Assembly: GCA_019237945.1 (NCBI GenBank)
Contig: JAFAOG010000158.1
Span: 1-35,250, forward strand
Length of the DNA stretch: 35,250 nt
Direction: 5' to 3'
Origin: Deltaproteobacteria bacterium
GTDB lineage: Bacteria > Myxococcota_A > Polyangia > Haliangiales > Haliangiaceae
In this document: positions 660 to 35,250 of the stretch, in pieces
How the letters are laid out: each line of letters begins with the position of its first letter
Numbering within the stretch: position 1 is the first letter of the stretch
Translations under genes and position numbers: made by a program
Notes under the pieces: generated by a model
Database searches by the model: none
What the model was told of the DNA's origin: nothing
Seen by the model: the letters and a program-made list of their open reading frames with translations, nothing else

Positions 660-2474
660 TTAGTACGCGTAGCCGAGGGTAACCGCGCCGCCGAAGTAGG
701 TATCGCGGGCGCCCAGGACTTCCTGCGTGGCCGGGTCGTTATCGCGCGTGTTCGCGAGCGACATCGGGTCGCCCTTGAACGTCATCCCGATCGTCTGGAG
801 CATCGCCTCGCCGCGCAGGAAGATGTTCTTCGTCACGTTGTAGTCGATGCCGCCCGCAAATTCGAAGCCGGTGACGCTCGCCGCGCCGTACTCGGTTGGC
901 TTCTGCATGTCGCCGGTGTTCGTCACCGCGAGGAAGCCCGCGCTGACGTTGATGTTCATCTTCGGCGACGCCGGGTAGATCAGGAACGCCTCCGGCTCGA
1001 TCATCTTGTACGCGACGTTCGGGACGTCGGTCGGATCGCCGTTCGGCAGCGTCTGCAGGATCGAGAACGTCTTGGCCTGATAGCCGAGCTTGCCGCCGAC
1101 GACGGTCGCCTTCTCGCCCTTGCCCAGCGGATAGCGGAACACGGCGGCGATCTTGAGGCGCGACTCGCTGGTCGTCAGGTTCGCGACCTGGCCGGCGCCG
1201 TTGGTATCGAGGTAGCGCTTCTGCGAGTTGATCTTGAGCGCCTTGTCGTAGAGGACCTCGAGGCCGATGCCGCTCGTGATCTCGCGGTTCTTCTTGTTGA
1301 ACGCGAGCGGATAGAACGTCGCGTCGAACATGCCGCCCGCGACCGGAATCGCCTGCTTGTAGCCGGGCGGCGGCGTCGACAGCGTCGACTTGTACGTGAA
1401 GCCGAGGTTGCGGCCGGTGAACGACAGACCCGCCGCCACGTCGATCGCGCGGCGCGCCGGCGTCAGCGCATCGGACATGTCGACGTCGCCCTCGTCGGAG
1501 TCGCTCGACACCGAGCTGCTGTCCTCGTCGTCGTCCTTCTTGGCGACTTTCTTCTTCGGCTTGTCGTCGCTGCTGTCCTCGTCGTCCGACTTGTCCTTCT
1601 TCTTCTTGTCGGCCTTCGGCAGCGGGGTGTCGTCCTCGTCGTGCTTCGTGCTCAGCGCCGCCTTGGTGTCGGCGTCGTCATCGTCCGACTTCTTCTTCTT
1701 GTCGGCCTTCTTGGGCTTCGCGTCGGCGTCTTCGTCGTCGTCCTTCTTCGCCTTCTTGTCCGCCTTCTTCGGCTTGTCCTCGTCGTCGACCTTGTCGCTG
1801 CCCTTCATGTCGTGCTGCTTGGAGAACGCCGAGTGCTTCGACGACGAGTCGTCGCTGCTGTCCTCGTCGTCGGACTTGTCGGCGCCCTTCTTCTTCTTCA
1901 CCGGCTTCGTGTCGGCATCGGCCTCGTCGTCGTCGGCGTGCTTCTTCTTCTTCGACGCCTTGCTGTCCGCCTCGTCGTCGTCATCGCCGCCGCCGCCCTT
2001 GTTCGAGTCGAGCTCGTCGATCTGACCGACCAGCTCGTCCTTGAGATCGCTCTGCGCCTTGCCGTCGAGGCGCGGGCCTTCGGCCTTCGTGTCGATCGAG
2101 TTGCCGACGAGCTCGCCGCTCGTGCCGGCACGCAGCTTGAGCCGGATGATGTACTCGTCGCGGCGCTTCTCGATCTTTCCCGAGATCACGCCGTCGACCT
2201 TGAGCTTCTTCGCGACCTTCTTGACGTTCTTCTCGGTGACCTTCGCCGCGTCGAGCTCCTCGGCCGCGCCGTTCCACTTCTCCGTCGAGATCACGGTGTG
2301 GCTCTTCTTCAGCAGCTTGACGACATCGTCGTGAAACTTCTCCGCCTTCGGGCCCTCGAACTCGAGCACGACGAGTCGTTTGCGGCCCGCGACCGCGATC
2401 GACGACCACACCAGCAGCGCCGCGACGACGAGCCAGAAACTACTTTTCGAAATGCTCGATGTCGAACTCGTCAT
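660..2474 (-). CDS. Exported protein: TolB/CsgG-like N-domain, Lys/Asp linker, outer-membrane beta-barrel-like C-domain
   Basis: 604 residues, not a family I can name. Residues 1-29 form a signal peptide (hydrophobic FWLVVAALLVWSSIAVA, likely cleaved before Gly30). Residues 30-155 look like the small alpha/beta domain found at the front of TolB/CsgG-like envelope proteins (VVLEFEG, later LKVDGVISGKI). Residues 157-335 are a low-complexity polyelectrolyte of alternating KKADKKKK and DDDED/SSDD blocks. Residues 343-604 alternate hydrophobic and polar residues and end in VTLGYAY, an aromatic-terminated strand typical of outer-membrane barrels. The ATG lies inside the 3' end of pilT (35-base overlap), so translation is probably coupled to pilT. 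This implies envelope work linked to the type IV pilus, which is inference. The linker could bind metal or surface polyanions, but nothing shows this directly. Confidence 0.8.
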   Translation of the reverse strand: MTSSTSSISKSSFWLVVAALLVWSSIAVAGRKRLVVLEFEGPKAEKFHDDVVKLLKKSHTVISTEKWNGAAEELDAAKVTEKNVKKVAKKLKVDGVISGKIEKRRDEYIIRLKLRAGTSGELVGNSIDTKAEGPRLDGKAQSDLKDELVGQIDELDSNKGGGGDDDDEADSKASKKKKHADDDEADADTKPVKKKKGADKSDDEDSSDDSSSKHSAFSKQHDMKGSDKVDDEDKPKKADKKAKKDDDEDADAKPKKADKKKKSDDDDADTKAALSTKHDEDDTPLPKADKKKKDKSDDEDSSDDKPKKKVAKKDDDEDSSSVSSDSDEGDVDMSDALTPARRAIDVAAGLSFTGRNLGFTYKSTLSTPPPGYKQAIPVAGGMFDATFYPLAFNKKNREITSGIGLEVLYDKALKINSQKRYLDTNGAGQVANLTTSESRLKIAAVFRYPLGKGEKATVVGGKLGYQAKTFSILQTLPNGDPTDVPNVAYKMIEPEAFLIYPASPKMNINVSAGFLAVTNTGDMQKPTEYGAASVTGFEFAGGIDYNVTKNIFLRGEAMLQTIGMTFKGDPMSLANTRDNDPATQEVLGARDTYFGGAVTLGYAY

Positions 2475-3594
2475 TGGGCGCTCCCTTGTCGTTCGGGGTC
2501 CAGCTGCGGTCGGCGCTACCCGACACGCCGCGGAACAGCAGGGCGAAGTCAGACGGGCTGGTCGAATGCTTGACGGCCTCCTCGTACGTGACGAGGCGCT
2601 GCTTCACCAGCGAGGCGAGGCTCTGGTCGAACGTGATCATGCCGTACGGATGGAGGCCCTCGGCGATCGCGGTGTGGATCTCGCGCGTGCGGTTCGGATC
2701 CTCGATCATCTCGCGCACGCGCTCGGTGTTGAGCATGATCTCGAGCGCGGGGACCATGCCCTTGCCGTCGGCGCGCGGCAGCAGGCGCTGCGAGATCACG
2801 CCGCGGAGCACGCTCGCGAGCGTCAGGCGCGCTTGCTGCTGCTGGTGCGTCGGGAACATCGAGATGATGCGGTTGATCGTCTCGGTCGCATCGACGGTGT
2901 GCAGCGTCGACAGCACGAGGTGGCCGGTCTCGGCCGCCGTCATCGCGATCTGTGCCGTCTCGAAGTCGCGCATCTCGCCGACGAGGATGACGTCGGGATC
3001 CTGGCGCAGCGCCGCACGCAGCGCGCGCGCGAACGACATCGTGTCGAACCCGATCTCGCGCTGGTTCAAGACGCTGCGCTTGTCGCGGAACGTGTACTCG
3101 ATCGGGTCCTCGATCGTGACGATGTGATAGGCCTGCTGCGTGTTGACCCAGTCGATCATCGCGGCGAGCGTGGTCGACTTGCCGGAGCCCGTCGCCCCGG
3201 TGACCAGCACGATGCCGCGATGAGCCTCGACCAGCTCGAGCACGGTCTTCGGGAGGTTGAGGCGGTCGAACGGCGGCACTTCGGGAGGGATCAAACGCAG
3301 GACCATCCCGACCGATCCACGCTGCTGGAACATGTTGACGCGATAGCGGACGCCATCGGGCGTGCCATACGCGAGGTCGATATCGAGGTTCTGCTCGAAG
3401 TCCGCGCGCTGCCTGTCGTTCATCATGTGGACCGCGAACTGCGCGATCGCCTCGCGGGTCAGCGCGGGCACGTCGCGGACGGTTCGCAGGTCGCCCTTGA
3501 TACGGAAGATCGGGGGTAGCCCGGCCTTTAGATGCACGTCCGAGGCCCCGAGCTGGCGCGCGGCGGTCAGGACGCGATCGAGGATCTGACTCAT
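2440..3594 (-). CDS. pilT: Type IV pilus retraction ATPase PilT
   Basis: Hexameric cytoplasmic ATPase that powers pilus retraction and twitching (social gliding in myxobacteria). 384 residues. The N-terminal PAS-like domain starts GASDVHLKAGLPPIFRIKG. The RecA-like domain has Walker A GATGSGKST (133-141), an aspartate box in the IEDPIE region (161-166), Walker B DVILVGEMRD (201-210) and the His box HLVLSTLHT (225-233), all intact. The length is slightly above the usual 345-370 because of a polar C-terminal tail ending EFDIEHFEK. PilU is the main alternative, and several PilT paralogues per genome are common in Myxococcota, so this need not be the principal retraction motor. No other pil genes lie nearby. 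It is the first gene of a minus-strand run, divergent from the zinc-ribbon gene at 3682. Confidence 0.92.
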   Translation of the reverse strand: MSQILDRVLTAARQLGASDVHLKAGLPPIFRIKGDLRTVRDVPALTREAIAQFAVHMMNDRQRADFEQNLDIDLAYGTPDGVRYRVNMFQQRGSVGMVLRLIPPEVPPFDRLNLPKTVLELVEAHRGIVLVTGATGSGKSTTLAAMIDWVNTQQAYHIVTIEDPIEYTFRDKRSVLNQREIGFDTMSFARALRAALRQDPDVILVGEMRDFETAQIAMTAAETGHLVLSTLHTVDATETINRIISMFPTHQQQQARLTLASVLRGVISQRLLPRADGKGMVPALEIMLNTERVREMIEDPNRTREIHTAIAEGLHPYGMITFDQSLASLVKQRLVTYEEAVKHSTSPSDFALLFRGVSGSADRSWTPNDKGAPNDEFDIEHFEK

Positions 3595-3681: not shown

Positions 3682-4785
3682 ATGCGTTGCCCGAGCTGCG
3701 GGACCGAGAACGCGCCGGATTCCCGGTTCTGCGGCGGGTGCGGTGCGCGCCTCGAGCCCTCGCGCGTCGCGCCGACGGTCAAGCTGCACGACGACGCCCC
3801 GGCGAACGTACCTACACCGCCTCCTGGCTCGATGAACATCGGCCATTTGCCGACGCCCGCGCCCGGCTCGCTGAGCTACCGGCCGGCGAGCATGCCGCCG
3901 ACGAACAACCCCGCGAGCATCCCGCCGACGAACAACCCCGCAAGCATCCCGCCGACCAACAATCCCGCGAGCATCCCGCCGACGAACCATCGGCTTGCGA
4001 GCCAGCCCGGCTACGCGCCGCCGACCTCGCAGTCGCCAGGCTCGCAGCCGCCGGGCTCGCAACCACCGGGCCAGCGGCGCGCGAGCACGCCGGCGCCCTC
4101 GGCGATGTCGTCGCCGTCGCTGTCGATGATGCCGCCGCGGCGCAGCGGCGCGATGATCGCGATCGTCCTCGTGATCGATCTCGCGCTCGCCGCCGCCGGC
4201 GCGACGCTGCTTGTCAAGGGCCTCGCGAAGCCGAAGGCCGCCGACGCAAAACCTGCGAAGACCGAGGCGCAGAAGCCGACAACCGCAGCTCCTGCGCCGA
4301 CTGCGCTCGCCCAGGCGCCCGCCCCGGCCGCCGCGCCCGAGCCCATCGGATCCGCCGCGCCCGAGCCGCCCGCGCCGCCCGCGCCGCCGATCGACAAGAC
4401 GGTCGCGCGCGATCCGAAGAAGCACGGCGGCAAGCCCGACACCAAGAAGGTCACGGCGAACGGCCCGCTCGATCCGTACGGCGCGGGTGGCGCGGCGGCG
4501 CCCGCGGTCGATCTGACGGCCGAGATCGACGCGCACGCGAAGGGCTCGTTCGGCGCGTTCCGCGCGTGCTTCTCCGACGCGATCCACGCCGGGCCGGTGC
4601 ACGGCGACATCCGCATCGCGTTTGTCGTCGAGCCCGATGGCCGCGTCGATCATGCCGCGCCGGTCGTCAACACGACCGGTTCCGACGCGCTCGGGAGCTG
4701 TCTCGCGCAAACGATCGGCGGCTGGACGTTTGCTCCCCACTCTGGCGCGGCCGCGACGTACGAGCGTCCGTTCAACTACCCGTGA
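3682..4785 (+). CDS. Zinc-ribbon, single-TM protein with AgmX/PglI-like C-terminal domain
   Basis: 367 residues. It opens with a double-CxxC zinc ribbon (C3, C6, C17, C20; MRCPSCGTEN...FCGGCGARL). A Pro/Ser/Asn-rich region follows with four tandem 9-residue units (PASIPPTNN) and SPGSQPPGSQPPG. One membrane helix lies at about 158-178 (MIAIVLVIDLALAAAGATLL), then an Ala/Pro/Lys-rich spacer. The C-terminal domain (about 276-367) has a conserved-looking Cys pair (FRACF, LGSCLAQ) and ends GWTFAPHSG...YERPFNYP, resembling the TonB-like domain of myxobacterial AgmX/PglI gliding proteins. The topology implies a cytoplasmic ribbon and a periplasmic C-domain. An ATG at 3670 is in frame but overlaps the likely -10, so 3682 is preferred. 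The neighbour at 4793 starts 7 bases after the stop. The specific role is unknown. Confidence 0.82.
   Translation: MRCPSCGTENAPDSRFCGGCGARLEPSRVAPTVKLHDDAPANVPTPPPGSMNIGHLPTPAPGSLSYRPASMPPTNNPASIPPTNNPASIPPTNNPASIPPTNHRLASQPGYAPPTSQSPGSQPPGSQPPGQRRASTPAPSAMSSPSLSMMPPRRSGAMIAIVLVIDLALAAAGATLLVKGLAKPKAADAKPAKTEAQKPTTAAPAPTALAQAPAPAAAPEPIGSAAPEPPAPPAPPIDKTVARDPKKHGGKPDTKKVTANGPLDPYGAGGAAAPAVDLTAEIDAHAKGSFGAFRACFSDAIHAGPVHGDIRIAFVVEPDGRVDHAAPVVNTTGSDALGSCLAQTIGGWTFAPHSGAAATYERPFNYP
3883..3990 (+). repeat. Four 27-bp in-frame tandem repeats
   Basis: Units at 3883-3909, 3910-3936, 3937-3963 and 3964-3990 each encode PAS(I/M)PPTN(N/H). Unit differences are mostly silent (ccc/ccg, gcg/gca, acg/acc). 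The number of units could vary between strains by slippage, which would change the reach of the cytoplasmic linker. Confidence 0.9.
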
Positions 4786-4792
4786 AGGCCTC

Positions 4793-5845
4793 ATGACGAT
4801 CGACTCCGGCTCGTTCCGCAGTGTCTCCGGCTCGAACAACGCGCTCGTCGGCGTGGAGGTGCTCGTGCTCGACGGTGACGAGCGCGTGCACGCCGGCATC
4901 GAGCAGCTGCTGTCGGAGGCGAGCCTGCACGTCACGTGCACGGCCGATCCGGCGCGCGCGGCGCAGCTCGTCGAGCGGCAGTTCTTCTCGGTGGCGCTGA
5001 TCGACATCGACACGCCGACGCCGCGCGCCGGCATCCCGACGATCGCGCGCGTCAAGCAGATCTCGCCGACGACGATGGTGATCGCGATGACGCCGCGCCG
5101 CAGCTACGACGACGCGGTCGATGCGGTGCGCAGCGGCGCCGTCGATCTGATCCTCAAGGCGCCCGAGTCGGTCGCGTATCTCAAGGATCGCGTGCTCGAT
5201 GCGGCGGGCCGCTCCGTCGGCCGGCGCGAGGTCGACACGGTGCTCGACGATATCAAGCGCGTCCACGACGAGTTCCTCCAGCGCTTCATGGACGCCGAGA
5301 AGCGCGCGCTCGATCTCGCGGATCAAGCGGCGGGCAAGGATGTCTCGCGGATGTCGCTGATCGACGAGCTGCGCGTGCTCGTGATCGACGAGGTCGACGA
5401 CTTCTACGACGCGATGGTCGAGGCCAAGCCGAAGGGCTACGCGTTCACGCACGCGACGAGCGGCGGCGAAGGTCTCGATCGCGCGAGCTCGGGCGCGTTC
5501 CACTACGCGATGATCGCGGAGGACGTCACCGACCTGCCCGCGCGCACGGTCGCGCGCACGATCCGCAACCAGCAGCCGGATACGGTCGTGCTGACGTTCC
5601 TCGGCCCCGCCGACAACGGGCACGTCGATCTCGTCGAGACGCACGGCACGCGCACGATCGTCAAGCCGTTCGACGAGGCCGGCAAGCTGGTCGCCCGCCT
5701 CGACGAGCTCGCCGAAGCGTGGCGCGCGAAGGCCCGCGAGCGTCGCTACACGCAGGCGTTCCGCGAGCGCCACTACGACTTCTTGCGCCGCTACGTCGAG
5801 ATCAAGACGAAGATCGATCGCGCCATGAACGAAGGGCCCGGCTGA
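4793..5845 (+). CDS. Two-receiver response regulator without an output domain
   Basis: 350 residues with two CheY-like receiver domains. REC1 spans about 20-138 ([10 protein letters not shown] acid pocket at 27-30, candidate phosphoacceptor D71 in LIDIDTP, MTP at 99-101, K122). A helical stretch at 140-185 follows. REC2 spans about 192-310 ([11 protein letters not shown], candidate D244, KPF with K291), with a basic helical tail to 350. REC2's acceptor region (IAEDVTD) is unusual, so it may not be phosphorylated. No DNA-binding or enzymatic domain is present, so it probably acts by protein contact. Translation should start at ATG 4793, 7 bases after the previous stop, preceded by gaagg. The frame is open further upstream, but that part overlaps the preceding gene and is not receiver-like. 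The 3' end overlaps the convergent gene by 44 bases. Confidence 0.85.
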
Positions 5846-30412: not shown

Positions 30413-31900
30413 TCAATCGTAGCGAAGACCTTCAACCGGCGTCAGCGCGGCGGCGGCTTGCGCAGGGGCCCATGTCGCGCCCAGGCTGATCGCCATCGTG
30501 ATGCCGGCGACCGCGAGCACCTCGACCGGGCGCACGTCGATCGGCAAACGATCGATCAGATAGACCTTCGGATCGAGGTGGTAGCCGTACCGCTGCACGA
30601 CGTAGCAGGTGACCAGACCGATCGCGACGCCGAGCAGCGTGCCCACCCCGCCGATCGCGAAGCCAAGGAACTGAAAGACGCGCGCGGTTGAAGTGGAATC
30701 CGATCCCATCGACTTGAGGATCGCGATCTCGCGCGTCTTGTCGGTGACCATCATCGTCAGCGCCGAGATCATGTTCACGGCCGCGACCAGGATGATCAGC
30801 GTCAGGATGATCACGAGCGCGAGCTTCTGGAGGTTCAGCGCGGTGAACAGGTTGTGGTTGAGCTCGTACCAGTCCTGGACCTGGAACGGCGGGCCGCCGA
30901 GCGCGTGCTCGAGCTTCTCGGCGATCTCCTCCGCGCGATCGACATCGCGGACCTTCATCTCGACGCCCATCACCTGATCGCCGCGGCCGTCGAGGTCCTG
31001 GCTGTCGCGCAGCGACGTGTACATCAGGCGGCGGTCGTACTCGTCGAAGCCGCTGTAGAAGATGCCGGCGATCCGGAACTTCTTCGTGCGCGGTGCGCTC
31101 GCACTCGCCCGCCAGCTGTCCCAGTCGATGTTCGACAGCGGCACGACGACGGTGACCTCGTCGCCCATCTTGGCCTTGAGCTTGTGCGCGAGCTCCTTGC
31201 CCATGATGATCGGCGGCAGCTCGCCGGGCCCCGGATCCTGTTCGAGCGCCGAGACCTTGCCTTCAATCATGTGCTGGTCGAGGTCGAGCACGCCGCTGAC
31301 GAGCTGCGGATCGACGCCCTTGATCGCGACGCCCGAGAGCTCGCCCTTGCCGCGCGTCACCAGCATCTCGTTGAAGTTGAACGGCTGGACCGCCAGCACG
31401 TCGGGATCGATCGCCTTCGCCGTCTTCATGACGTCGCGGTACTCGGCGAACGTCGACTGCGACTTCATCACGATCACGTGCGCGTTGACGCCGAGCACCT
31501 TGTCGCGGAACTGCTGCTGGAACCCGGTCGTCACCGCGAGCACGATCGTCAACGCCGCGACGCCGAGCGCGACGCCGAGCACCGAGACGCTCGTGAACAC
31601 GGTGAACACGCTGAGCAGCAGGAACACGGCCGCCGAGATCAGCCCGATCAGCAGCGCCGCCACGCCGTACGGCGACCCGCCCTTCTGGATCAGCAGGTCG
31701 AGCCCGCCCGCGATGCAGATCACGAACGACCCGATCGCGAACTTGATCATCATCGAGTCGCGCTTGCCGCCGTAGAGGTAGCGCGTCGCGATCCGCCGCT
31801 CGAACTTGCGGCGATGCACCTCGTACGCGATCCAAACCGCGACCCCGACGCCGAGCGCCTGAGCGAGATACGGGAGCAGTGTTGCCAGCCAGTCAGGCAC
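30413..31900 (-). CDS. LolC/LolE-family ABC transporter permease with extra N-terminal helices
   Basis: 495 residues. LolC/E proteins work with the ATPase LolD to release lipoproteins from the inner membrane to LolA. The family opening FERRIATRYLYGGKR lies at 33-47. The expected TM1 block (VSVLGVALGVAALTIVLAVT, about 105-124) is followed by FQQQFRDKVLGVNAHVIVMK. A periplasmic domain spans about 127-365, and three more helices sit at about 368-392, 415-440 and 462-482 with MVTDKTREIAILKSMG, the coupling region. Two additional hydrophobic helices (52-71 and 78-100) are inserted between the family opening and TM1, and another precedes it (7-27). No lolD lies next to it. It follows the 219-residue exported protein by 8 bp, so the two form an operon. 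Confidence 0.87.
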   Translation of the reverse strand: MPDWLATLLPYLAQALGVGVAVWIAYEVHRRKFERRIATRYLYGGKRDSMMIKFAIGSFVICIAGGLDLLIQKGGSPYGVAALLIGLISAAVFLLLSVFTVFTSVSVLGVALGVAALTIVLAVTTGFQQQFRDKVLGVNAHVIVMKSQSTFAEYRDVMKTAKAIDPDVLAVQPFNFNEMLVTRGKGELSGVAIKGVDPQLVSGVLDLDQHMIEGKVSALEQDPGPGELPPIIMGKELAHKLKAKMGDEVTVVVPLSNIDWDSWRASASAPRTKKFRIAGIFYSGFDEYDRRLMYTSLRDSQDLDGRGDQVMGVEMKVRDVDRAEEIAEKLEHALGGPPFQVQDWYELNHNLFTALNLQKLALVIILTLIILVAAVNMISALTMMVTDKTREIAILKSMGSDSTSTARVFQFLGFAIGGVGTLLGVAIGLVTCYVVQRYGYHLDPKVYLIDRLPIDVRPVEVLAVAGITMAISLGATWAPAQAAAALTPVEGLRYD

Positions 31901-32685: not shown

Positions 32686-33324
32686 ATGCCCGAGCCGGCG
32701 CGTGCTCCCCGTACGCAACAGCAACGGCGCGACGAGACCCGTCGTGCGCTGCTGGACGCGGCGGTGGAGTCGCTGATCCAGGTGGGCTTTGCGCGCACGA
32801 CCACGCTCGAGGTCCAGCGCCGCGCCGATGCATCGCGCGGGGCCCTGCTCCACCACTTCCCGTCGAAGATCGAGCTGCTGGTCGCCGCCGTCGATCACCT
32901 CGCCGAGATGCGCGCCCGCGAGCTCAAGATGCTCGCCGCCCAGCTGCCGGAGGGACGCGCGCGCACCGATGCCGTGCTCGAGCTGCTCTGGCAGTGCTTC
33001 ACCGGCACGTTCTTCCAGGTCGCGATGGAGCTGCGCACGGCCGCGCGCACGGATCCCGAGCTGCGCCCGGTGCTGATCACGGCCGAGCGCGCGCTTCGCG
33101 ATCGCATCGTCGCGCAGGCGCGCACGCTGTTCGGCAAGGACGTCGCCGAGCACCCGGGCCTCGAGCGTGCGCTCGACTTCACGCTTCAGTTCATGATCGG
33201 CGCCGCGATGACGACGGTGCTGCACGAGGACCCGCGCTTGCGTGACCTCATCGAAGATTTCAAGCAGCTGTTTCCAACGGTGTTGACCACTGCAACAACC
33301 AAGCGACGCAAGGTGACGAAATGA
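32686..33324 (+). CDS. TetR/AcrR-family repressor of the MFE-2 gene
   Basis: 212 residues. The N-terminal HTH is at about 18-62 (RRALLDAAVESLIQVGFART, TTLEVQRRADASRGALLHHF, PSKIELLVAAVDHL), typical of TetR with GALLHHFPSK as the recognition-helix end. The C-terminal ligand and dimerisation domain includes LELLWQCFTGTFFQVAMEL and LQFMIGAAMTTV, hydrophobic helices suited to a fatty or acyl-CoA ligand. A perfect inverted repeat sits on its own promoter, so autorepression is likely. The stop overlaps the next ATG (ATGA at 33321-33324), so repressor and enzyme are co-translated. Given the neighbour, acyl-CoA or sterol-like metabolites are the likely inducers (inference). The ATG at 32686 is 7 bases after the -10. 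Confidence 0.93.
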   Translation: MPEPARAPRTQQQRRDETRRALLDAAVESLIQVGFARTTTLEVQRRADASRGALLHHFPSKIELLVAAVDHLAEMRARELKMLAAQLPEGRARTDAVLELLWQCFTGTFFQVAMELRTAARTDPELRPVLITAERALRDRIVAQARTLFGKDVAEHPGLERALDFTLQFMIGAAMTTVLHEDPRLRDLIEDFKQLFPTVLTTATTKRRKVTK

Positions 33325-35250
33325 GCAAAGAGCTACGCTTTGACGGAAAAGTCGCGATCGTGACGGGAGCCGGTGGCGGCCTCGGGCGATCGCATGCACT
33401 GCTGCTCGCGAGCCGCGGCGCGAAGGTCGTCGTCAACGACCTCGGCGGCAGCCACACCGGCGAGGGCAAGAGCGCGTCGGCGGCCGACAAGGTCGTCGCG
33501 GAGATCAAAGAGAAGGGTGGCGAGGCGGTCGCGAACTACAGCTCCGTCGAGGACGGCGACGCGATCATCAAGACCGCGACCGACACCTGGGGCCGCGTCG
33601 ACATCGTCATCAACAACGCGGGCATCCTGCGCGATGTCTCGTTCCAGAAGATGACGCAGGCCGACTGGGACCTCGTCTACAAGGTCCACGTCTTCGGCAC
33701 GTACAAGGTCACCGCCGCCGCGTGGAACCTGATGCGCGACCAGGGCTATGGCCGCATCATCAACACGTCGAGCGCCGCCGGCATCTACGGCAACTTCGGC
33801 CAGGCCAACTACTCGATGGCCAAGCTCGGCATCCACGGCTTCACGCAGACGCTCGCGGCCGAGGGTCGCAAGCGCAACATCATCGTCAACACGATCGCGC
33901 CGATCGCCGGCTCGCGCATGACCGAGACGGTCCTGCCGAAGGAGCTGCTCGACGCGCTCAAGCCCGAGTACGTGTCGGCGCTCGTCGCCAAGCTCGCGCA
34001 CGAGTCGATGGAAGACACCGGCGGCCTCTACGAGGTCGGCGGCGGCTTCTACAGCAAGCTCCGCTGGGAGCGCACGAAGGGCAAGACGTTCCGCCTCGGC
34101 CGCGCGATCACGCCCGAGGACATCGACAGCTCGTGGAAAGAGGTCACCAGCTTCGAGGGCGCCGAGCACCCGGCCTCGGTCGCCGAGTCGATGCAGCCGA
34201 TCATGGCGAACGTCGAGGCGGGCCCGAGCAAGGGCGGCAACCAGTTCATCGACGTCGACGCCGCGCTCGGCTTCAAGTACCCCGAGCAGAGCTGGACGTA
34301 CGACACGCGTGACGTCGCGCTCTACGCGCTCGGCGTCGGCGCCGCGAAGGATCCGACGAACGAGGCCGACCTCGCGCTCGTCTACGAGATGAGCGGCAAG
34401 GGCATGAAGGTGTTGCCGTCGTTCGGCGTGCTGCCGGCGATCAACATGGTGTTCGACCAGGCCAAGCGCGGCATCACGGCGCCCGGCCTCAACTTCGGTC
34501 TCGACCGCGTGCTCCACGGCGAGCAGTACACCGAGCTCAAGCGTCCGCTGCCGACGACCGGCAAGCTGACGACGAAGGCGAAGGTCAGCAACATCTACGA
34601 CAAGGGCAAGAACGCGCTCGTCGTCACCGAGTTCATCACGTACGACGAGAACGGCGACGAGCTGATCAAGAACGAGCTGACGACGTTCGTGCGCGGCGCG
34701 GGCGGCTGGGGCGGCGATCGCGGACCGTCCGCGGACGTGAACGTCCCGCCGGATCGCGCGCCCGACAAGACGATCGAGGACCGTACGACCGACAACCAGG
34801 CCCTGCTCTATCGCCTCTCCGGCGACTGGAACCCGCTGCACGCGGATCCGGGCTTCGCGAAGGCGTTCGGCTTCCAGAAGCCGATCCTCCACGGCCTGTG
34901 CTCGTTCGGCTTCGCGACGCGCGCGGTGGCGCAGGCGTTCGCGCCCGACGGCGATCCTCGCTACATCAAGAGCATCAAGGCGCGGTTCGCGTCGACGGTG
35001 CTTCCCGGCGAGACGCTGATCACCGAGATGTGGAAGGACGGCGACAAGGTCCTGTTCCGCACGAAGATCAAGGAGCGCGGCGAGGTGTGCATCTCCAACG
35101 CAGCCGTCGAGCTGTGGAAGGAGCTGCCTCAGCCGAAGCCGAAGGCCGCCCCGAAGGCCGCTGCCTCCACGAGCGCTGCCCCGACGAGCGCCGACTACTT
35201 CCGTGCGATCGAGACGTTCGTCAAGGCGAACCCCGCGACCGCCGAAAAGG
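33321..35250 (+). CDS. MFE-2-type multifunctional beta-oxidation enzyme (dehydrogenase + hydratase 2 + SCP2 start), runs off right edge
   Basis: 643 codons with no stop. Order of domains: (1) short-chain (3R)-hydroxyacyl-CoA dehydrogenase, residues 1-300, with TGAGGGLG (15-22), NNAG (98-101) and the catalytic S151, Y164 and K168 (QANYSMAK). (2) MaoC-type enoyl-CoA hydratase 2, about 310-600, with YRLSGDWNPLH and KPILHGLCSFGFA, the hydratase-2 signature carrying catalytic Asp and His. (3) An Ala/Pro/Lys linker and ADYFRAIETFVKAN, which looks like the start of an SCP2 lipid-carrier domain. This is the layout of eukaryotic peroxisomal MFE-2 (HSD17B4). The enzyme hydrates trans-2-enoyl-CoA to (3R)-hydroxyacyl-CoA and oxidises it to 3-ketoacyl-CoA. 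Its ATG overlaps the tetR stop. No signal peptide, so cytoplasmic. Substrates (branched, very-long-chain or steroid side chains) are inferred from the family. Confidence 0.95.
   Translation, partial: MSKELRFDGKVAIVTGAGGGLGRSHALLLASRGAKVVVNDLGGSHTGEGKSASAADKVVAEIKEKGGEAVANYSSVEDGDAIIKTATDTWGRVDIVINNAGILRDVSFQKMTQADWDLVYKVHVFGTYKVTAAAWNLMRDQGYGRIINTSSAAGIYGNFGQANYSMAKLGIHGFTQTLAAEGRKRNIIVNTIAPIAGSRMTETVLPKELLDALKPEYVSALVAKLAHESMEDTGGLYEVGGGFYSKLRWERTKGKTFRLGRAITPEDIDSSWKEVTSFEGAEHPASVAESMQPIMANVEAGPSKGGNQFIDVDAALGFKYPEQSWTYDTRDVALYALGVGAAKDPTNEADLALVYEMSGKGMKVLPSFGVLPAINMVFDQAKRGITAPGLNFGLDRVLHGEQYTELKRPLPTTGKLTTKAKVSNIYDKGKNALVVTEFITYDENGDELIKNELTTFVRGAGGWGGDRGPSADVNVPPDRAPDKTIEDRTTDNQALLYRLSGDWNPLHADPGFAKAFGFQKPILHGLCSFGFATRAVAQAFAPDGDPRYIKSIKARFASTVLPGETLITEMWKDGDKVLFRTKIKERGEVCISNAAVELWKELPQPKPKAAPKAAASTSAAPTSADYFRAIETFVKANPATAEK

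Follow-up and report, generated by a model that had tools for sequence, protein, structure and literature searches.

The window analysed here is a stretch of 35,250 bases that makes up one entire contig (C120, JAFAOG010000158.1) of a Haliangiaceae genome assembly (GCA_019237945.1; 8,125,654 bases in 632 contigs, 94% complete). At its right-hand end lies a gene that probably encodes a bacterial form of multifunctional enzyme type 2 (MFE-2), the peroxisomal enzyme known in animals as HSD17B4 or D-bifunctional protein. The gene is an ATG-started open reading frame (ORF) of 643 codons (33321-35249, plus strand) with no stop before the window edge, where it is cut because the window is a whole contig and its edge is that of the assembly.

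Domain organization and catalytic residues

Three Pfam families match the window protein, all well above their cut-offs. The core of a short-chain dehydrogenase/reductase (SDR), the putative 3R-hydroxyacyl-CoA dehydrogenase, occupies residues 10-195 (33348-33905, plus strand; adh_short, 142 bits), and is followed on the same strand by the N-terminal domain of hydratase 2 at residues 325-459 (34293-34697; MFE-2_hydrat-2_N, 130 bits) and its C-terminal, MaoC domain at residues 476-588 (34746-35084; MaoC, 102 bits). The last 22 residues (622-643, 35184-35249, plus strand; TSADYFRAIETFVKANPATAEK) align with the start of the first SCP2 domain of a close relative, L018, and of further relatives, a segment that forms a helix in a structural model of the L018 tail. 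The best solved relative is 3oml, entitled Peroxisomal Multifunctional Enzyme Type 2, CG3415 (E 1.1e-160, residues 4-599), and 1gz6 (SDR) and 1s9c (hydratase 2) rank high as separate chains in the same PDB search, with identities of 59.1% over 298 residues and 46.9% over 273 residues, respectively. We take 3oml to be from fly, 1gz6 from rat and 1s9c from human. The Pfam domains and the 3oml match bear out a preliminary description of the window, which had recognized a dehydrogenase and a hydratase 2 in the order of animal HSD17B4, and the four sequence blocks that it quoted are all present in the protein.

The alignment to 1gz6 begins 1 to 1 and runs ungapped up to the catalytic residues, and Ser151 (33771-33773), Tyr164 (33810-33812) and Lys168 (33822-33824), all on the plus strand, carry the numbers that the preliminary description had given for the mammalian enzyme. 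All three are conserved in 37/37 fused SDR rows of the alignment, and the SDR core also has G16, D40 and N99. An RWER motif at residues 248-251 (34062-34073, plus strand) is nearly as constant (R 37, W 36, E 36 and R 37 across the 37 fused rows); 1gz6 and the first of the two Candida SDRs share it, the fly protein reads HMVR instead, and the motif is rarer among the 47 other bacterial SDRs sampled. In the MaoC domain, the motif GDWNPLH contains D502, N504 and H507, all three kept in 39/39 fused rows.

The probable C-terminus of the protein on a second contig

A search of the same genome with Pfam SCP2, at E up to 10, gave five matches. Three share a single frame, which runs off the edge of another contig, C180. 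The reverse complement of C180 begins with a 327-codon frame that ends in a stop (complement of 4343-5326), and in it Pfam recognizes three SCP2 stretches (140.8 bits). On the L018 gene (88% identical), the window aligns up to base 1930 and C180 from about base 1966 onwards; the missing piece measures about 36 nt, or about 13 residues, by L018 coordinates, and the flanking genes on both sides agree with those of L018, L019 and L021. Because the two contigs do not overlap, we infer the join, but the window gene almost certainly continues on C180. No second SDR-hydratase fusion was found among 25 matches in the same genome, and no second SCP2 array at the threshold above. The C180 frame ends in LGFLKGVI, with no SKL-like peroxisomal targeting signal; this is expected in a bacterium and concerns the address of the protein, not its enzyme family.

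In the same genus, nine of the 11 other genomes have SCP2 matches in frames of at least 752 codons. The exceptions are G1009, with SCP2 in short frames only, and G1016, with none at E 1e-5. One separate short frame is L051 (contig C457, 3-194), in which the contig start leaves only the last part of an SCP2 gene and which overlaps an ORF at 191-1339 that, from its sequence, we label a CaiB-like CoA-transferase; same-genus genomes other than that of L051 also have SCP2 in separate short frames.

Distribution and SCP2 content of related genes

A scan of contigs returned 32 loci, nine of which (L018-L026) match the whole or nearly the whole window protein; their hosts are Kofleriaceae, Polyangiaceae, other metagenome-assembled genomes (MAGs) of Myxococcota or Deltaproteobacteria, and two Moraxellaceae MAGs. 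At least 30 of the 282 genomes sampled from the phylum carry the MFE-2 gene, a count that includes the present genome, whose SCP2 is attached through the join to C180, four loci whose N-terminal side is cut by the contig (L076-L079, the last two without an SDR on the same stretch), and L080, whose gene falls into two overlapping frames. In the class to which the Moraxellaceae MAG L025 belongs, at least 2/369 genomes have it. Among the candidates scored, the phylum of L029 has the fused gene in 0/198 genomes, 11 matching in the SDR part only, and the phylum of L028 has the SCP2-bearing form in 0/151, one locus, L108, being an SDR-hydratase 2 fusion without SCP2. All these survey counts are lower bounds, because two to five candidates were scored per genome. 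The SCP2-bearing form is common in the phylum and also occurs in a few Gammaproteobacteria.

All 37 loci with an intact C-terminus in this bacterial clade carry SCP2 after the linker, three copies in 29 of them and two in the remaining eight; two loci cut by their contigs, L020 and L091, stand in the trees as three-SCP2 forms and outside these counts. Two other fused proteins, L108 and L119, have no SCP2. The preliminary description had named the lack of an SCP2 fold after the linker as the result that would speak against it, and the opposite was found in the 37 complete loci and, across the short gap, in the genome itself. Its reading of an apparent SCP2 module therefore stands as regards the presence of the domain, borne by the C180 frame, the probable continuation of the gene, and by the 37 relatives, and is to be amended as regards the number, which is probably three copies and not one. 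The window alone does not settle the matter, because only about 22 SCP2 residues lie inside it.

In a tree of SCP2 domains, the last copy forms a separate group (37 rows, support 98), and copies 1 and 2 are often each other's nearest neighbours within a genome (e.g. L053, L057, L059, L065, L069), a pattern suggesting that the inner copies have been duplicated or gene-converted more than once. In L059 and L065, the two copies are nearly identical within each genome, as if recently duplicated or converted. By sequence, the C180 tail matches the SCP2-like domain of human MFE-2 best. A model of the L018 tail (mean predicted local distance difference test score, pLDDT, 72.8; predicted template modelling score, pTM, 0.36), submitted as a whole to a fold search that does not specify which of the three domains matches, likewise has human MFE-2 SCP2-like domains as its best matches (template modelling score 0.83 by target length, 39% identity). 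In the free SCP2 tree, the human domain falls beside the bacterial MFE-2 SCP2s (support 88). However, constrained trees with the three eukaryotic SCP2s together, or with the human domain beside copies 1 and 2, were not rejected and had higher likelihood (p 0.889 and 0.761); SCP2 kinship was accordingly discarded as evidence on the order of gain, in either direction.

Phylogenetic relationship to eukaryotic MFE-2

For the trees of the two enzymatic halves, rows with less than 38% identity, or with fewer than 200 (SDR) or 240 (hydratase) residues, were dropped. The eukaryotic sample consisted of six chains, and alphaproteobacteria and actinobacteria were represented by plasmid records alone; L076 was left out of the SDR tree, and L076-L080 and L132 out of a tree of the two halves joined. 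Presumably, 2et6 and 1pn2 are from Candida, 7mku from Arabidopsis and 3kh8 from Phytophthora.

In a quick SDR tree (87 rows), the group containing 1gz6 and 3oml (support 98) also included 36 fused rows, six solo SDRs and L108; in a quick hydratase tree (62 rows), that containing 1s9c, 3oml and 7mku (support 87) included 39 fused rows, one solo hydratase and L108. In the more careful joined tree (54 rows), 35 SCP2-bearing fused rows formed one clade (100/99), which in turn formed a clade with animal MFE-2 and L108 (100/99), leaving the bacterial split pairs outside. Eukaryotes are represented there by one fly row and one rat-plus-human row only, because Candida, Arabidopsis and Phytophthora were sampled for one half only. 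Hence the dehydrogenase and hydratase halves do not fall with separate bacterial families, as the preliminary description had allowed they might, but both group with animal MFE-2. L119, a single SDR-hydratase 2 frame of 697 codons (1195-3285, minus strand), is a separate fusion among the split pairs.

The inner order of the clade is less clear. Animals were outermost in the joined tree, with support of 77/20; a tree that joined them to the bacterial clade and left L108 outside was slightly better (p 0.554), and three further placements of animals, beside L108, the main myxobacterial rows or those around Moraxellaceae, were not rejected either (p 0.343, 0.251 and 0.222, respectively). Animals beside the bacterial clade and animals inside it are both compatible with these tests, and the trees do not settle the direction in which the gene passed between bacteria and eukaryotes. 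The Candida and Phytophthora rows, which have long branches, were not part of the group in the unconstrained trees of either half; when all four eukaryotic rows were constrained to stay together, the likelihood rose in every case and the constrained tree was not rejected.

Among the solo genes in these groups, L109 (4001-4903), on the Porphyrobacter plasmid pYT40, is an SDR inside the MFE-2 group that adjoins genes for an acyl-CoA dehydrogenase, a thiolase and an enoyl-CoA hydratase, and it is possibly a fission product. L125 (genome G089; 2007-2897, minus strand) is a solo hydratase 2 frame inside the fused clade, without SDR or SCP2, followed by an SCPx-type thiolase (769-1947, minus strand).

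Neighbouring genes

Directly upstream of the MFE-2 gene, a TetR-family regulator of 212 residues by translation (32686-33324, plus strand; TetR_N, 49.6 bits) has a stop that overlaps the MFE-2 start by 4 nt (ATGA); it is 83% identical to the TetR at the corresponding place in L021. On C180, the MFE-2 stop is followed by a frame of 392 residues that is thiolase throughout and matches the NCBIfam model PRK08256, lipid-transfer protein (671 bits, cut-off 436). Its nearest structure is 6hsj, an SCP2-thiolase type 1 that we take to be from zebrafish (E 5.3e-157, 526 bits), and the next kind of thiolase scores E 9.3e-59 and 203 bits. The order TetR, MFE-2, thiolase is common to L018, L019, L021, L026, L052 and L058. 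A thiolase of this kind lies downstream on the same strand in 33 of the 35 loci with enough downstream DNA, L057 and L069 being without it (the stretches of L075 and L080 end too early). A thiolase tree of 29 of the 33 loci and C180 had branch lengths at their limit in its two outgroup rows, an unsettled bootstrap and no usable root.

In two loci of the same phylum, from another class (L120 and L121), TetR, SDR, hydratase 2 and thiolase are all separate genes, and in L120 the TetR and SDR genes overlap by four bases too. Such an operon with an SCPx-type thiolase was found in these two of the 16 split-pair loci examined (L103, L106, L110, L111, L113-L118, L120-L124 and L132); the other 14 have no such thiolase within the stretch examined, bar a weak 29% match in L132. 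Upstream of the separate fusion L119 (genome G016) lies part of an SCPx-type thiolase gene (67% identical), truncated where the stretch ends. Elsewhere in the window, an ORF at 30413-31900 on the minus strand reads, by its translation alone, like a lipoprotein-release permease of the FtsX/LolC type.

Proposed function

Taken together, these data lead us to read the window gene as a bacterial MFE-2 composed of SDR, hydratase 2 and three SCP2 domains, preceded by a TetR regulator and followed by an SCPx-type thiolase, and we give this reading a probability of about 0.83. The product would be one chain of about 983 residues, 643 seen in the window, about 13 falling in the gap and 327 on C180. In the known chemistry of MFE-2, hydratase 2 forms a 3R-hydroxyacyl-CoA, which the SDR oxidizes with NAD before a thiolase cleaves the product. 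Here, hydratase 2 would hydrate a trans-2-enoyl-CoA to the 3R-hydroxyacyl-CoA, the SDR would oxidize this with NAD, and the thiolase would cleave the resulting 3-ketoacyl-CoA, so that the gene order may supply all three steps after the first oxidation. The preference for NAD is predicted from Asp40, a residue kept in the eukaryotic rows and presumably a predictor of NAD over NADP. In mammals, MFE-2 and then SCPx act on pristanoyl-CoA and on bile-acid precursors, and by analogy the two kinds of enzyme side by side suggest bulky or branched substrates. The locus is most likely a module that carries out D-specific beta-oxidation of bulky or long acyl-CoAs, and its SCP2 array is best read as a putative carrier for bulky or branched acyl-CoAs, which might keep bulky, long or branched chains near the active sites or shuttle them to and from membranes. 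The domains, the catalytic residues, the SCP2 numbers on C180 and in relatives, the gene order and the kinship with animal MFE-2 are observations; co-transcription, catalytic direction, substrate class and the role of SCP2 we infer, as we did the joining of C120 and C180. The substrate may be a sterol or a branched compound; the squalene epoxidase family PF08491, sought as a sign of sterol synthesis, has no match in the genome, in which sterol-ring degradation genes were not searched for.

Several observations weigh against this reading. The assembly is in 632 contigs with 4.92% contamination, C120 and C180 share no overlapping sequence, and the C180 tail is just 66% identical to that of L018, against 88% in the core, although the tails of L019, L021 and L026 are likewise only 65-67% identical to it. 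A TetR gene lies directly upstream, at E 1e-12, in 7/41 loci (L018-L021, L026, L052 and L058), and this part of the gene order is therefore local, mainly to near relatives. The thiolases of fused operons are 52-62% identical to 6hsj, those of the unfused operons 70%. A full-length AlphaFold model of L018, built on nine sequences, is poor (mean pLDDT 64.4, pTM 0.36), and domain packing drawn from it was dropped as too weakly modelled. Finally, the SCP2 domains could serve structure or assembly instead of transport.

If C180 carried the tail of another gene and the window gene had no SCP2, the lack of overlap between the contigs would be explained, and fusions without SCP2 do occur (L108, L119). 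We nevertheless hold this to be very improbable: the genome yielded no further SDR-hydratase fusion, the gene order on either side agrees with L018, L019 and L021, the window falls in a clade whose 37/37 complete members bear SCP2, and its last 22 residues already match the start of SCP2 domain 1. It is also quite improbable that the enzyme works in synthesis and not in breakdown, carrying out ketoreduction and dehydration as acyl chains are built or elongated. The weaker SDR matches do include FabG-type reductases, and an SCP2-type thiolase of Trypanosoma brucei is described as active in both directions (PMC9512073). However, the identified neighbours are a TetR regulator and a thiolase, the others not having been searched for synthases or carrier proteins, and Asp40 would predict NAD, not NADP.

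Evolutionary origin

The origin of peroxisomal beta-oxidation is still open. A 2006 survey labelled Fox2/MFE-2 as alpha-proteobacterial and left SCP2 unresolved (PMC1472686). A 2011 study argued for a myxococcal input to mitochondrial beta-oxidation, and a term search of its text returned no HSD17B, D-bifunctional, SCP2 or sterol carrier (PMC3131387). For human MFE-2 (DHB4), a gut-microbiome survey gives counts of 0 and 1 (PMC11580864), which we read as 0 full-length and one split homolog. Among the literature matches listed, mostly outside subscription journals, no paper describes a bacterial MFE-2 with SCP2.

Regarding the bearing on the origin of the peroxisomal enzyme that the preliminary description had proposed, the kinship with animal MFE-2 is upheld and the direction of transfer is not told by the trees. 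We offer tentatively, as one possible history, that the eukaryotic MFE-2/SCPx pair derives from bacterial genes for TetR, SDR, hydratase 2 and an SCPx-type thiolase, that fusion and gain of SCP2 took place in bacteria, and that Myxococcota keep both unfused and fused stages, with an SCP2 array that is still duplicating. The whole fused operon as the eukaryotic source is weakened by the 70% identity of 6hsj to the unfused-operon thiolases, which makes a simple history with one donor less likely. Bacteria and eukaryotes may instead have fused SDR to hydratase, or acquired SCP2, independently of each other, a possible though doubtful history: L119, a second fusion inside a clade of split genes, indicates that fusion recurs, and SCP2 kinship is undecisive, the tree with the three eukaryotic SCP2s together not being rejected, but the SDR and hydratase trees agree in uniting animals, L108 and the bacterial fused proteins. 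A move of the eukaryotic gene into bacteria, with the extra-SCP2 form derived there, appears rather unlikely. The branch order of animals, L108 and bacteria would accommodate it, as animals with part of the bacterial clade were not rejected (p 0.251 and 0.222); however, the SCP2-bearing bacterial proteins form one clade without animals (100/99), and bacteria hold the wider range of states, namely split genes in matching order, a fusion without SCP2, solo SDRs inside the group, and two to three SCP2 copies.

The question of origin becomes testable by trees and enzymology now that a bacterial clade shows every domain in its place, with an SCPx-type thiolase next to it and, elsewhere in the phylum, genes in matching order that are unfused. 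Versions of MFE-2 with no (L108), two or three SCP2 domains likewise provide a bacterial system for the role of SCP2.

Comparison with known systems

Fusions of SCP-2 were reportedly treated by Edqvist and Blomqvist. The fungal Fox2 type of MFE-2 (2et6, 1pn2) has homologs of both the SDR and hydratase 2, its SDRs being 49% and 44% identical, but its chain holds two SDRs, as seen in the PDB match, and to our knowledge no SCP2. Bacterial separate SDR/MaoC pairs, which we take to be of the Hsd4A/Hsd4B kind, belong to the same two families and are encoded by adjacent genes; in contrast to the window gene, they are unfused, no SCP2 was found in them, and they fall outside the MFE-2 clade in the joined tree (L132 not included). 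Among them, L120 and L121 come closest in gene order, with TetR and an SCPx-type thiolase in matching positions. SCPx itself combines a thiolase and SCP2 in one chain, and the thiolase next to the C180 frame is nearest to its kind, SCP2-thiolase type 1, but consists of thiolase only, SCP2 sitting here on the MFE-2 side. Animal peroxisomal MFE-2 shares with the bacterial protein the order SDR, hydratase 2, SCP2 and the catalytic residues, and its SCP2-like domain is the nearest to the bacterial ones in sequence and fold. The animal layout has one SCP2, whereas the bacterial form probably has three, acts outside any organelle and stands in the order TetR, MFE-2, thiolase, and as such would offer a testable bacterial counterpart of the peroxisomal MFE-2/thiolase pathway.

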